Shown: positions 43,628 to 49,573 of the stretch, in pieces
Position numbering within the stretch: position 1 is the first letter of the stretch
Layout of the letters: the number at the start of each line of letters is the position of its first letter
Origin: an uncultured Pseudokineococcus sp.
Lineage (GTDB): Bacteria; Actinomycetota; Actinomycetes; Actinomycetales; Quadrisphaeraceae
Direction of reading: 5' to 3'
Length of the DNA: 64,000 nt
Assembly: GCF_947499845.1 (NCBI RefSeq)
Contig: NZ_CANMPM010000005.1
Coordinates: 62,001 to 126,000 of the forward strand
The notes under the pieces: model-generated
Databases searched by the model: none
What the model was told of the DNA's origin: nothing
What the model saw: the letters and a program-made list of their open reading frames with translations, nothing else
Program-made: the position numbers and the translations under genes

Positions 43628-43950
43628 CGGATCCAGCCGCTCGTCGCGCCCTCCGGCCTGCCGTCGCGGGTCCGGCCGGGACGGCTCGTCCCTTTTGGCG
43701 TCGATCCCGCCGCCCGTCGCGCCAGCGATACCGCCCGCGCCGCCATCGCCGACGATCGACCTCACCTGCAAGTTCCAAGGTCCTGCCTCAGTGGTCGCGG
43801 CAACAGCCCCTCACTCTGCGGCTTGTTCCATCGTTTGAGCGACAGCTGCGCCGGCCGGGCGACATGCCGGGGGAGTGGCGTCCAGAACTCGTGTCCGAAA
43901 CCTCTGTGTCGCGCAACCCATGTCGGGGGGTTTCCGTACGCTCCCGAGCC
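43628..43950 (+). other. transition region before the recombinase; possible res-like repeats
   Basis: No gene recognised. From about 43760 the base composition becomes less GC-rich. GAAACC (43906-) and GGTTTC (43929-) form separated inverted arms just before the recombinase, with TACGCT 8 nt before its ATG as a possible -10. Such arms resemble recombinase binding sites, by inference only. Confidence 0.4.
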
Positions 43951-44595
43951 ATGGGACACGCCCTCGGCTACGCCTGGGTCTCGACCACCGCGCAAGACCC
44001 CTCGATGCAGACCGACGCTCTGATCGCGGCCGGGTGCGCGCAGGTCTGGGCCGACGTCGCCTCCGGTGGCCGTGACGACCGGCCCGAGCTCGCCCGGCTC
44101 CTCGAGCGGCTGCTGCCGGGGGACACCCTCGTGGTCTGGCGCCTGGACCGCCTCGGCCGGTCGCTGCCGCACTTGCTCGCAACGATCACCGAGCTCGAGG
44201 GCAGGGGAGTGGGCTTCCGTTCTGTGACCGAGTCCATCGACACCACCACCGCCGGCGGGCGCCTGGTCTTCTCGATCTTCGGTGCCTTGGCTGACTTTGA
44301 GCGCCAGCTCATCCGCGACCGCACCCTCGCCGGCCTCGAGGCCGCCCGCGCCCGCGGCCGCGTCGGAGGCCGACCCACCGTCATGACCCCGGCGCGGGTC
44401 GAGGCCGCCCGGGCGCTGCTCGCCCGCCCCGGCGCCACGGTCACCTCGGTCGCCAAGGACCTCGGCGTCAGCAGGGCCACCCTCTACCGCACCGTCCTGG
44501 CCGACGGAGTCGAGCCACCGCCCCGGCCGACAGACGAGGTCGGCGATGCGGTCCCGGATCGAGGAGCGGGCGGCCGCGGCGACGCGAAGGTATGA
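43951..44595 (+). CDS. serine recombinase (resolvase/invertase family)
   Basis: 214 residues. Catalytic domain with GYAWVSTTAQ (nucleophile Ser), VWRLDRLGRSLPHLL (the DR..R active-site cluster) and AALADFERQLIRDRTLAGLE-type E-helix (FGALADFERQLIRDRT), then a C-terminal HTH (TSVAKDLGVSRATLYR). Length is that of small resolvases. The residue two before the catalytic Ser is Trp where the family has a conserved Arg (GYARVS), so activity may be changed or lost. It begins the AT-richer island. Confidence 0.9.
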   Translation: MGHALGYAWVSTTAQDPSMQTDALIAAGCAQVWADVASGGRDDRPELARLLERLLPGDTLVVWRLDRLGRSLPHLLATITELEGRGVGFRSVTESIDTTTAGGRLVFSIFGALADFERQLIRDRTLAGLEAARARGRVGGRPTVMTPARVEAARALLARPGATVTSVAKDLGVSRATLYRTVLADGVEPPPRPTDEVGDAVPDRGAGGRGDAKV

Positions 44596-44655
44596 ACCTC
44601 GCGGAGCGGCCGAGTCATGCACTCTGTGCTGAGGATGTCTCAAAAGGAGGTCAAC

Positions 44656-45501
44656 GTGGACCCTGCGCTCACAGGCGGCATGGTGGTGGCCAAGGCGGTA
44701 GGTAAGGAGGTCAGTGACACGAAGGTGCTGACCCGGCTGTTCGGCCCTCTGGCAGACGAGGTGGGCGCGAACTGGTCAGAGGCTTATCGACGTCACAATG
44801 CCGCCAAGGTGGCTAGAAAAGCAGCGAAGCGGCTCGGGAGCCAACTTGACCAGCCAGCTGTTGTGAACGCGCGGGTGGCCTACCGCCTGTTGCAAGACGG
44901 CTCCTTCATCAACGACGACGTGATGCAGGAGTACTTGGCAGGACTGTTGGCCGGATCGCGGACGCAAGCGGGCGACGACGACCGAGCCTCGTACTACGTC
45001 GATCTGGTAGCACGCCTGCCTTTTAGCCAGATACGATTGCACCACGCTGTTTATGCGGCGCTAGGAACTTCAGGCGCCAGCGACGACTACGGCGAGTCGA
45101 CGTACCTCCAGTTGCGCACGCTCTTCGCGCCGTTACCTTCGGCTGCCGAGGTGCTGCAGCACCCCACGGACATTGACCCGGTGAATGCTCTGGGTGAAGC
45201 ATTGACTGGATTGGCACGCGAGGGGCTGATCAGCGACTTCACTGTGGCGGAAAGGGCCCGCTTTGTGTATCAGCCTTATGGTCGGGCAGCCGACGACCCA
45301 GTTGTGGACAATCTAGTCATGATCGTGCCAAGTCAGGTGGGATGCATGCTCGCCTTGTGGTCTCACGGCATTCGTGATGCCGATGTCGGGCGCCTGCCTG
45401 AAACAGTCGAGTGCAACTTCGACACGCCCGGGCCGATCTTCGCGGAGTGGCGCTTTAAGCATGGGGGGGTTATCACCGGACTGGCAAAGCCATTGATCTA
45501 G
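44656..45501 (+). CDS. DUF4393/Abi-alpha-like protein (candidate abortive-infection component)
   Basis: 281 residues from GTG 44656, chosen for the full Shine-Dalgarno AAAAGGAGG 5 nt upstream. The N-terminal part (KVLTRLFGPLADEVG, then RKAAKRLG, VVNARVAYRLLQDGSFINDD and MQEYLAGLLAGS, LVARLPFSQIRLHHAVYAAL) follows the layout of DUF4393 (Abi-alpha) proteins as I remember it; the C-terminal half is unassigned. Codon use is clearly AT-richer than the flanks, indicating transfer. It lies between the recombinase and an OLD-type ATPase gene. Confidence 0.6.
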   Translation: MDPALTGGMVVAKAVGKEVSDTKVLTRLFGPLADEVGANWSEAYRRHNAAKVARKAAKRLGSQLDQPAVVNARVAYRLLQDGSFINDDVMQEYLAGLLAGSRTQAGDDDRASYYVDLVARLPFSQIRLHHAVYAALGTSGASDDYGESTYLQLRTLFAPLPSAAEVLQHPTDIDPVNALGEALTGLAREGLISDFTVAERARFVYQPYGRAADDPVVDNLVMIVPSQVGCMLALWSHGIRDADVGRLPETVECNFDTPGPIFAEWRFKHGGVITGLAKPLI

Positions 45502-45648
45502 GACCGCGCCGGTTCGGCGCACCTGCGCTCACAGCAGTCCTTCGATCATGTAGGGCTTGACTGTCGGGTCCATTGAGCGCCGCGGGGCATTAGCGCGGCC
45601 GATTGAGGATGACGTTCACGGCCACCCGTGCATGGAAAGAGGTTACCA

Positions 45649-47352
45649 ATGCTGACCAGCGTTCAGGTGCAGCGATTTAAGTCTCTTAGTGATATTACGT
45701 TGCCGCTGGGAAAACTGACTGTGCTCGTGGGACCGAATAACGCAGGTAAGAGTAGTGCGTTACAGGCGACCCAGTTCCTGACCTCCGTGTGTCAGAGCCT
45801 TTCTATCGATGGGGTCTCACCCTGGAAGGGGGACGACCGGAGCGGCACTCTCTCGTCGCAGCAGCTCATCTACACCCCACTAAGAGACGTGCACGCCCTT
45901 GCGGCCGGTGGAAGCCTGAGGCAGGAGACCGCTACTTCAATACAGATTAGTCTCATTGATGACGTCCTGGGCGATACGAAGTTGTCCGTTAGTCGCGGTA
46001 AAAATAAGAACATCTCCATTCGCCTCTCGGGTCGGCGGTTGGGTACAGAACTAGAACGACTCGACCGTCCCTTCAGCGTTGTGGCACCGGGGCTGGCGGG
46101 TATCCCCTCCGTCGAGGAGTACAGGGCGCCAGGGATCGTCCGGAGAGCGGCAGCAAGGGGGGACGCGAACAGTGTCTTTCGAAACGTGCTTTGGACCCTG
46201 AAGCAGGACGTCTCGGGCTGGGCCTCATTCCTCGAGTCGCTTGAGCGGGTCTTTCATGACCTGTCCCTAGACATCTCCTACGACCATTCGACTGACGAGT
46301 ACATTACGGTCCGAATGCACCGAGGAGAGCAGTACTGGCTGCCCATTGACTCTGCGGGTACGGGTGTACTCCAAGCTATGCAGGTACTTTCCTACGTGGG
46401 GGTCTACCGGCCGAAATTGCTCATCCTCGATGAACCGGACTCCCATCTGCATCCAGACAATCAACGGAGGCTCGCCCGACTGCTGGCGGATCTCACTGAT
46501 AGTGGTGACATGCAGGTGCTGCTGTCCACGCACTCGCGCCACCTCCTGGACGAATTCTCCAAGCTGGATGCCGTTATCCACTGGATCAGCGGGGGAATTT
46601 TGCAGGAGCAGCCCTACGACCGAGTCAGTGGGTTGCTAGACCTTGGTGCGCTCGATGCCGGCGATCGACTACGTGGTGGCGCTACGGCGCTAGTTGTTAT
46701 CACTGAGGACAAGAAGACGGAATTGCTACGGACGCTTTTGGCGTCCTCAGGGCTTAGGGAGGAGAACTTCCAAGTCTGGTCCTACGCCGGTTCCAGTAAA
46801 ACGGAAGCGGCTCTTCTGCTTGGACGTTTCATCATGGATGCTGCACCAGGCACAAAGGTTCTTGTGCATCGGGATAGGGACTACCTGTCAGACGGCGACG
46901 TTGCTGCTTTCGTCGGGGCGCTTCAACGAGAAGGCATGCATGCGTTTGTTACGGTCGGCACAGACGTCGAGAGCCACTTCCTGGATATCGACTACCTCGA
47001 GTCGGTGACAGGGTTGGCCCGTGACGAGGTTGAGCGGCTCGTTGAGCAGGCGACAAAGAATGCACGGGAAAAGTCCCTCGAGGTCATGATCAACGAACGC
47101 GTCGCGGCTGCCAACCGTGCCAGAACGCGAGGTGATGGTGGACAGCCAAACGTTGGTCGACTGAGCAGGGAGGCCGCTGCTGAACTAGATGACATGCCTG
47201 CCCGATTCCGTCACGGCAAGGCGACGCTAGGTCAACTTCGCGAGGCTCTGCAGGCGCGAGGTGGTCGCCAGGTCAAGATCGGAGAAGACGCGAACCCGAG
47301 ATTGTCGGTGCCGACTATCGCGTCCATTTTTGAGCGCATTAAACGTGATTAG
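45649..47352 (+). CDS. OLD-family ATPase with TOPRIM-like nuclease domain
   Basis: 567 residues. ABC-type ATPase: VQRFKSLSDITLPL, Walker A GPNNAGKSSAL, signature region DSAGTGVLQAMQVL, Walker B LLILDEPDSHLHPDN and switch STHSRHLLDE. From about residue 355 a TOPRIM-like segment: ALVVITEDKKTELLRTLL (Glu), VLVHRDRDYL (DxD) and DVESHFLDIDYLESV. Same architecture as OLD nucleases such as GajA of Gabija, but no UvrD-like partner is present. ATG 45649 follows AAAGAGG by 6 nt. Base composition is strongly atypical of the genome. Confidence 0.85.
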   Translation: MLTSVQVQRFKSLSDITLPLGKLTVLVGPNNAGKSSALQATQFLTSVCQSLSIDGVSPWKGDDRSGTLSSQQLIYTPLRDVHALAAGGSLRQETATSIQISLIDDVLGDTKLSVSRGKNKNISIRLSGRRLGTELERLDRPFSVVAPGLAGIPSVEEYRAPGIVRRAAARGDANSVFRNVLWTLKQDVSGWASFLESLERVFHDLSLDISYDHSTDEYITVRMHRGEQYWLPIDSAGTGVLQAMQVLSYVGVYRPKLLILDEPDSHLHPDNQRRLARLLADLTDSGDMQVLLSTHSRHLLDEFSKLDAVIHWISGGILQEQPYDRVSGLLDLGALDAGDRLRGGATALVVITEDKKTELLRTLLASSGLREENFQVWSYAGSSKTEAALLLGRFIMDAAPGTKVLVHRDRDYLSDGDVAAFVGALQREGMHAFVTVGTDVESHFLDIDYLESVTGLARDEVERLVEQATKNAREKSLEVMINERVAAANRARTRGDGGQPNVGRLSREAAAELDDMPARFRHGKATLGQLREALQARGGRQVKIGEDANPRLSVPTIASIFERIKRD

Positions 47353-47367
47353 GCGGATTCGCGCGAT

Positions 47368-47395
47368 GCCGCCGATAATCTGTGTTATGACGGAT
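47368..47395. other. dif: dif-like XerC/XerD recombination site
   Basis: XerC arm GCCGCCGATAA (47368-47378), 6-bp centre TCTGTG, XerD arm TTATGACGGAT (47385-47395). CGCCGATAAT and TTATG are the most conserved parts of the actinobacterial dif consensus as I recall it. It lies 16 bp after the OLD gene at the right edge of the foreign DNA. No second copy was found in the island. Confidence 0.6.
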
Positions 47396-47543
47396 GCTTG
47401 ATCCGGGCGGGTCTCGGTGCTCCCCGTGGCCGGCGGCGGCGTGTTCTGATCCCGCTCGACGCCGAGGTGGAGCGCCGGCGGGTCCATGTTCAGCCTCCTC
47501 GAGCGGCCGGCCGCCTCGCGCGGCTGGCGCGGAGGATGCGGCG

Positions 47544-47780
47544 GTGGACGTCTACTGGCAGGCGACGGTCGCCGGCGCCGCCGTCGTGACGCTGGGCGTC
47601 GTGGTCCTGCGCTTCTCCGGTCACATGGGTCGGGCGCTCGTCTCGGCGTGGCGGCGTCGGGGCGTGGAGGCTGACTCGGACCTCGCCCGGTCGAGCGCCA
47701 TGCTCGTCGGCTACGGGGCCTGCCTCATCGGCGTCGTCGCGGTCGTCGTCTCGATCGTGGCTCCCGAGTCCTTCGGGTGA
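47544..47780 (+). CDS. small two-helix membrane protein
   Basis: 78 residues: VYWQATVAGAAVVTLGVVVL (helix 1), RFSGHMGRALVSAWRRRGVEA (basic loop), AMLVGYGACLIGVVAVVVSI (helix 2). GTG 47544 follows GGAGG by 8 nt. GC-rich, so the host sequence resumes here. Unknown function. Confidence 0.6.
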   Translation: MDVYWQATVAGAAVVTLGVVVLRFSGHMGRALVSAWRRRGVEADSDLARSSAMLVGYGACLIGVVAVVVSIVAPESFG

Positions 47781-47998
47781 GGTCAACCCAGCTGGCTCCG
47801 GAGGGTGGCGTCGACCCCTCGGGCGGCCACTGCTCCGCCCCGTCCGCTGCCGAGGGGTGCCGCTCGACGCCGCCGGCGGCGCTGACATGCCCCGAGGTCG
47901 CGACAGGGTGACGACGGTTGCGCTCTCGGCGGTGGTGAGCGCACCTCCGCCAGTCGAGCGCGGGCGGTCGAGTGAGCCTCGTGCTCTCGGCGTGGTCG

Positions 47999-48448
47999 TC
48001 AGCGGTCGGTGGCGGCCTGCAGCGCCCCGGCGAGGTCGTGGAGGCGGACCACGAGGTCGTCCTGCTCGCCCTCGGTCAGCCCCGAGGCGGCGGTGACCCG
48101 GGCCGGCACGTCGGCCAGCTCCTCCGCGAGCCCGCGCCCCGCCGCCGTGAGCGCGACGAGCACCGTGCGCTCGTCCTGCGCACCCCGGTCCCGCGTGAGC
48201 AGGCCCTGGGCCTCGAGCCGCTTGAGCAGCGGCGAGACGGTGTTCGACGAGAGCCCCAGGCGCCGGGCCAGCGCCATCACCGGGGCCGGGCCGTCCTGCC
48301 GCAGCACCGACAGCACCGTGTACTGCGGGTAGGTGAGGCCGGAGCCTGCGAGGAGCGCCCGGTAGGTGGCGTCCATGGCGTGGGCCGCCCGGTACAGCGC
48401 GAGGCACAGGCGCTCGTCGACCGGGACCTCGCTCTCCGCTGCTGCCAC
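47999..48448 (-). CDS. ohrR: OhrR-type MarR regulator, organic peroxide sensor
   Basis: 149 residues. DERLCLALYRAAHAMDATYR then SGLTYPQYTVLSVL is the OhrR signature, with reactive Cys at position 15 exactly as in the Bacillus OhrR; the winged helix is RLGLSSNTVSPLLKRLEAQG. Oxidation of the Cys by organic hydroperoxide releases DNA. GTG 48448 lies 6 nt after TACCCT, so the mRNA is probably leaderless. Divergent from an alpha/beta hydrolase rather than from ohr. Confidence 0.88.
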   Translation of the reverse strand: MAAAESEVPVDERLCLALYRAAHAMDATYRALLAGSGLTYPQYTVLSVLRQDGPAPVMALARRLGLSSNTVSPLLKRLEAQGLLTRDRGAQDERTVLVALTAAGRGLAEELADVPARVTAASGLTEGEQDDLVVRLHDLAGALQAATDR

Positions 48449-48487
48449 CTGCGGAGGGTAGTGCGACCCCCGTCGCGTCCGGGTTCC

Positions 48488-48533
48488 TGTCGTGCGCGAC
48501 ACAGTCGCCCTCGTTAGCGTCGTGCGCGACACA
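48488..48533. promoter_or_regulatory. duplicated OhrR-type operators before the hydrolase
   Basis: GTCGTGCGCGACAC occurs at 48489-48502 and again at 48519-48532; each contains the palindrome GTCG-TGCG-CGAC (48488-48501 is a full TGTCG/CGACA version). TAGCGT (48515-48520), a candidate -10, lies between them and touches the second site. Confidence 0.65.
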
Positions 48534-48578
48534 CCACCCGCTCCCGCAGCGGGTCCGTCAAGCGAGGGGACGCGCACC

Positions 48579-49415
48579 ATGGCCGAGGTCACCGCCCACC
48601 ACGGGCTCTTCAAGGACACGCACCTCCACGTCGACGACACGGGCGGCACCGGTCGCCCGGTCGTCCTGATCCACGGCTGGCCGCTGTCGGGCGAGTCGTG
48701 GTCCGAGCAGGTCCCCGCGCTCGAGGCCGCCGGCTACCGCGTCGTCACCTACGACCGCCGCGGCTTCGGGCGCAGCGACAAGACCCGCAGCGGCTACGAC
48801 TACGACACGCTCGCTGACGACCTGCAGGCGCTGCTCACCGAGCTCGACCTCACCGACGTCACCCTCGTGGGGTTCTCCATGGGCGGCGGCGAGGTGGCGC
48901 GCTACGTGTCCCGCCACGGCCAGGACCGCCTGCGCAGCGTCGTCTTCGCGGCCGCCGTCCCGCCGTACATGGCGCAGTCGGACGACAACCCCGAGGGCCC
49001 GCTCGACGACGCCACGGCGCAGCAGTTCGAGGACGGCCTCAAGAGCGACCGCTCGGCCTTCTTCGACCAGTTCACGACCCAGTTCTTCTCCGTCGGTGAC
49101 GACCTCAAGGTCACGGAGGCGCAGCGCCAGCAGGCGATCGCGCTGTGCGAGCAGTCCGACGAGAAGGCGACGCTCGAGTGCATGGAGGCCTTCGCCACCA
49201 CCGACTTCCGCGGTGACCTGCCGTCGGTCACGGTGCCGACGCTCGTCCTCCACGGCGGCGGCGACGGCGTCGTGCCCTTCGAGGGCTCCGGGAAGCGCAC
49301 GCACGAGGCGATCGCCGGCAGCGAGGTGCACGTCGTCGACGACGCGCCGCACGGCTTCAACGTGAGTCACGCGCGGGAGTTCAACGCGGCCCTGCTGGAC
49401 TTCCTCGCCCGCTGA
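48579..49415 (+). CDS. alpha/beta hydrolase (non-heme haloperoxidase-like)
   Basis: 278 residues. VLIHGWPLSGESW (oxyanion), TYDRRGFGRSDK, nucleophile elbow GFSMGGGEVARY, and the catalytic His in DAPHGFNVSHA with Asp in HGGGDGVVP. Close in pattern to cofactor-free haloperoxidases/esterases. ATG 48579 with GAGGGGA upstream. Probably derepressed by OhrR on peroxide stress. Confidence 0.88.
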   Translation: MAEVTAHHGLFKDTHLHVDDTGGTGRPVVLIHGWPLSGESWSEQVPALEAAGYRVVTYDRRGFGRSDKTRSGYDYDTLADDLQALLTELDLTDVTLVGFSMGGGEVARYVSRHGQDRLRSVVFAAAVPPYMAQSDDNPEGPLDDATAQQFEDGLKSDRSAFFDQFTTQFFSVGDDLKVTEAQRQQAIALCEQSDEKATLECMEAFATTDFRGDLPSVTVPTLVLHGGGDGVVPFEGSGKRTHEAIAGSEVHVVDDAPHGFNVSHAREFNAALLDFLAR

Positions 49416-49455
49416 CGCCGGCCGGGGCGCTCGTCCGCGACGTCGCCGCCCGACC

Positions 49456-49498
49456 GCGCAGGGCCCGGATCCGCCACCGGCGGGGCCGGGCCCTGCGC
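49456..49498 (+). terminator. hairpin after the hydrolase gene
   Basis: GCGCAGGGCCCGG (49456-49468) pairs with CCGGGCCCTGCGC (49486-49498); an inner CCGCC/GGCGG stem closes the loop. Confidence 0.85.
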
Positions 49499-49573
49499 CG
49501 TCCCGGCCCCGACTGCTTCGGCCCGGCGACCACGCCCCGTGCCGCCCGCGGGCCCTCCGGGCAGGATGCGTGC

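Follow-up and report, generated by a model that had tools for sequence, protein, structure and literature searches.

A dif-like XerC/XerD site at positions 47368..47395 (+ strand) of the window, the 64-kb stretch of DNA from an uncultured Pseudokineococcus sp. that was analysed, is probably a secondary, plasmid-type (pdif-like) site, which would have come in together with an accessory gene block and marks the 3' end of this block. The adjoining DNA has the properties of accessory or mobile DNA: it is low in GC, is absent from the sister genome G001, and carries a recombinase gene and defence-type genes.

The site consists of the XerC arm GCCGCCGATAA, the centre TCTGTG and the XerD arm TTATGACGGAT. 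The sequence, the coordinates and the 11-6-11 layout given in a preliminary description of this DNA are all exact. A single occurrence of the core pattern is found in the window, against none in 100 shuffles. The draft genome of the host (3.72 Mb in 76 unordered contigs) contains two exact matches to CGATAATNNNNNTTATG, the window site and C12:72474, and none to the reversed control, and the chance expectation for CCGATAATNNNNNTTATGAC is about 2e-5 genome-wide. The uniqueness of the pattern in the window, the lack of control matches and this low expectation argue that the 28-base site is a real dif-type recognition sequence. A weight matrix was trained on 39 chromosomal dif sites of the same order, all of which score at least 38.1 bits when left out of the training in turn. 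The window site has kept its cores and scores 22.3 bits against this value; its 201-kb contig has no other match above 8 bits. The XerD arm is, as had been described, degenerate after TTATG: its four outer bases are GGAT, compared to ATTA in the host dif, and real dif sites likewise differ from one another at these outer positions (TATGTCGGATC at L037 is an example). Three positions of the centre differ from the host dif as well. The low score of the XerD arm and of the centre could be taken to mean that the site is an inert relic or a chance lookalike of dif, but this is very improbable for a pattern so rarely expected in a genome of this size, in which both arm cores and the 6-bp spacing have been retained.

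The preliminary description allowed for two cases, the chromosomal dif, with the replication terminus in the window, and a second copy. The genome-wide search for dif decided for the second copy. A better dif is located on contig C12 (C12:72470-72491, minus strand, CCGCCGATAATGAGCGTTATGACATTAG), with 40.6 bits against the 22.3 bits of the window site, and these two are the only matches above 8 bits on their two contigs. In G001, the flanks of the C12 dif are matched at 92% identity and the collinearity runs across the site, and the dif of the sister genome G002 has flanks in common with it on one side. It is thus the C12 dif, and not the window site, that occupies a conserved position across the sister species. 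Contig C12 also bears xerD and parA. At the loci in G001, G002 and G003 that match the window (L097, L101-L104) no dif-like site above 14 bits was found, and the window site therefore most likely came in with the block. Over 10-60 kb to either side of this site the GC skew is positive and rises, so that the switch looked for at this coordinate is lacking; the skew is minor evidence, because it is weakly developed in this draft genome of unordered contigs. In spite of the good core motif, the probability that the window site is the chromosomal dif and the window the replication terminus is negligible in the face of the conserved C12 dif, the sister loci and the climbing skew. By the sequence comparisons, the window site is distinct from the chromosomal dif, and the window lacks the dif of the terminus. 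A dif motif by itself must not be used to place the replication terminus.

The block is a 3.5-kb insert of low GC content that is missing from G001 and contains genes for a res-type serine recombinase, a weakly Abi-alpha-like protein and an OLD/AAA-type ATPase, all on the + strand. Its left end (43827..43950) is res-like: TGTC/GACA half-sites recur in front of the recombinase gene, and several loci share a homology that sets in abruptly at about 43827-43830. The recombinase (43951..44595) is a small protein of about 214 amino acids of the resolvase family (Resolvase and HTH_7). It is followed by a 294-amino-acid protein (44617..45501) with a weak match to Abi_alpha (PF14337) that is below threshold, 17.8 bits against a cut-off of 29, and by a 574-amino-acid AAA_21/AAA_15 ATPase (45628..47352) with partial matches to the defence ATPases AriA, NsnB, MAD3, Old and GajA, and probably a defence gene itself. 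The OLD/GajA/AriA-like ATPase and the weakly Abi_alpha-like gene beside it (44617-47352) form a candidate two-gene phage-defence unit. The relatives of the ATPase (51-53% identity) have neither a dif-like site nor a homologue of the 294-amino-acid partner nearby. This partner was not found on any plasmid, and on that basis no plasmid with the same block was found.

The stop codon of the ATPase gene occupies 47350-47352, the dif-like site starts 16 bp further on, and the GC content jumps from about 0.58 to 0.75 across the site. The location at the edge of an island, proposed earlier, is thereby confirmed as the 3' edge of the low-GC insert. To the right of the site lies a high-GC stretch (47397..47842, + strand), which has no collinear match in G001 and includes a short open reading frame (about 47544-47780) resembling a decayed copy at G001:C301. 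Collinearity with G001 returns at about 47843-47859, with 447 bp between it and the dif-like site; the host chromosome at 47843..49503 is collinear with G001:C1, at 89.7% identity over 47859-49503. On the left, the chromosome is collinear with G001:C1 up to about 43796. The same position in G001:C1 (L097:6071-16786) is occupied by an unrelated insert of 10.7 kb, whose left end is res-like and which has another small serine recombinase. The comparison of the sister species suggests that the position is an insertion hot spot. A clean empty site, which the preliminary description proposed to compare in related strains, is not available, because G001 holds this different insert and the 447 bp on the right have no collinear match.

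The genome encodes only two proteins of the Phage_integrase type, XerC on C9 and XerD on C12. The gene of the former adjoins that of a WhiG-like sigma factor, and the XerC model is its best match. The latter adjoins parA and fits the XerD model better than the XerC model. Both score under the strict XerC/XerD equivalog cut-offs; the general tyrosine-recombinase cut-off is passed by the parA-adjacent protein, and the WhiG-adjacent one falls just short of it. As the insert has no tyrosine recombinase of its own, any action at the window site must be that of the host pair. The plasmid-type site would then work as follows. Host XerC and XerD would bind the two arms and resolve dimers or cointegrates of the plasmid carrying it. 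Such sites might occasionally let them exchange or integrate gene blocks, and the block in the window might have become stranded in the chromosome. Several observations speak against the pdif-like reading: the left border of the insert has no dif-like site, conservation is lost in the outer half of the XerD arm, the centre departs from the host dif, the score is low, and no plasmid was found to carry this block. A movement of this block by Xer is possible and no more than that, since the second dif-like site is missing.

Pseudokineococcus is rich in such sites. With up to 3 mismatches to CCGATAANNNNNNTTATGACAT, the four genomes of the genus contain 2, 2, 4 and 6 sites (n=14), and 0-1 with the reversed pattern. 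Subtraction of one chromosomal dif per genome, that of G003 not being singled out, leaves 10 extra sites, 1-5 in each of the four genomes. At comparable stringency, the nine other family members have 0-1 dif site each and no extras, and most genomes in the sample of the order have one dif site. The extra sites other than the window site score 16.8-42.5 bits. Relaxase (TrwC-type or MobA-type) or TraG genes are found near those on G001:C535 and G003:C19, and pairs in the same orientation are present in G002:C2 and G003:C11. In G002:C2, G003:C11 and G003:C12, a homologous gene block stops about 30-50 bp short of the site, and sequence identity breaks off within the dif core. The module in G003:C12 is 92% identical to that in G003:C11 up to the centre of dif; the XerD arm is full in G003:C11 (TATGACATAAG) and changed in G003:C12 (TACGACAACAG), where the conserved chromosome returns 207 bp past the site. 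With such ends, the extra sites resemble the boundaries of Xer modules.

The window site and the G003:C12 site are alike in their anatomy, with an intact XerC arm on the side of the cargo and an altered XerD arm on the side of the host. This is the outcome that would be expected if the island had circularised and been integrated by Xer through recombination of its own dif-like site with a weak one in the chromosome, giving a hybrid att site with a chromosomal XerD arm. The position of the window site at a composition border, and the joining of the changed XerD arm to host DNA in G003:C12, agree with such an event. It is nevertheless unlikely: integration by Xer should give two directly repeated dif-like junctions, of which one is present, the left end is res-like, and there is no empty site, the sister species having another insert there. 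The earlier proposal that the island was integrated by the host Xer recombinases met the same obstacles, a single dif-like site, a left end that appears to be a truncated res and the missing empty site.

The left end raises another alternative. The DNA in front of the shared sequence is unrelated in the window, where this sequence begins at an AT dinucleotide; the same probably holds for G003:C14, and both look as though they had lost the left portion of the res site. The block might accordingly be a cassette bounded by two recombination systems, with a crossover site for the resolvase at its left border, dif at its right and exchange at each end. Consistent with this, the left flanks differ between the window and G003:C14, and the same clade of resolvase is found upstream of a dif-like site in the same orientation in the window, G003:C19, G002:C1 and G002:C2. 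Such clustering is to be expected, since recombinase and dif are both normal plasmid parts. The recombinase end in G003:C14 has no dif, and the missing res half, which an insertion by a serine recombinase should leave behind, was sought to the right of the insert, where nothing rose above shuffled controls. Only few of 80 recombinase relatives have a dif nearby, two of them in Curtobacterium, where it is probably the chromosomal dif. A cassette bounded by two systems is thus quite improbable. For the same scarcity among the 80 relatives, a conserved recombinase-dif cassette in other genera was rejected. A related recombinase lies 6 kb from a dif-like site on the Cellulosimicrobium plasmid pTL2A, and the Kineococcus plasmid pKRAD02 bears a recombinase and no dif-like site.

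Cer and psi are Xer-type plasmid multimer-resolution sites, and are thus, like the pdif-like site proposed here, XerC/XerD sites on a non-chromosomal replicon. They differ from the window site, at which the search for accessory sequences identified none. A downstream CTGnTCAG is present at some sister sites. In a subset of the extra dif-like sites (L045:3285, L048:5551, L046:6140, L236:4002, L238:796) this motif lies about 3 bp past the XerD arm; it was not seen at the chromosomal dif sites inspected, and is possibly a site for an accessory factor.

The nearest described system is that of the chromosomal dif modules and pdif modules of Acinetobacter (PMC12907356, PMC13141974, PMC6449649), the former reported in 2026 (PMC12907356). 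Both there and here, extra dif-like sites occur on accessory DNA of plasmid and chromosome and bound small gene blocks, and host XerC and XerD serve the sites, as is predicted for Pseudokineococcus. In contrast to Acinetobacter, the host is an actinobacterium and the block in the window is not flanked by dif-like sites on both sides, since there is one in 64 kb and the other end is res-like. Integrative mobile elements exploiting Xer (IMEX), such as the CTX phage of Vibrio cholerae, are inserted at the chromosomal dif and flanked by a site on either side (PMC4246890, PMC5357621). Like them, the insert has a dif-like site and no tyrosine recombinase of its own, IMEX depending on host XerC and XerD; unlike them, it is located away from the C12 dif and has a single site.

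Spare dif sites allow mobile DNA to borrow recombinases that every cell must retain. Gene shuffling at dif-like sites is known mainly from Acinetobacter, and a limited literature search, with most subscription papers outside its reach, found no report of dif modules in actinobacteria. It is conceivable, if rather doubtful, that Xer drives an active module system in the Pseudokineococcus chromosome. Accessory and defence genes would then change places between dif-like sites, with resolvase/res ends as a further route for the exchange of blocks. Such a system would be comparable to the Acinetobacter dif modules, in high-GC actinobacteria. The data on the genus suggest, at a more general level, that dif-site gene shuffling occurs in actinobacteria too, several of whose plasmids bear dif-like sites. 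A CCGATAA-6-TTATG[AT]C site, mostly intergenic, is present on 14 circular actinobacterial plasmids (L236, L237, L243-L254) from Rhodococcus, Prescottella, Hoyosella, Dietzia, Arthrobacter, Corynebacterium, Mycolicibacterium, Mycobacterium and Mycobacteroides; no account of plasmid dif-like sites in actinobacterial genera was found in the literature searched. Viral contigs gave 5 matches only, and the one examined (L238) has nothing else in common with the Pseudokineococcus loci.

Inverted pairs of sites were also observed. In G002:C1 (179294-181500; L042:9294-11500), two high-scoring dif sites (41.1 and 42.5 bits) lie in inverted orientation 2.2 kb apart, and Xer action on them would flip the intervening segment. 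In another genus of the order, G316:C5 has dif-like sites with identical cores (L226:5716, L226:7700), inverted and 2 kb apart, and a third copy is found on the small contig G316:C22.
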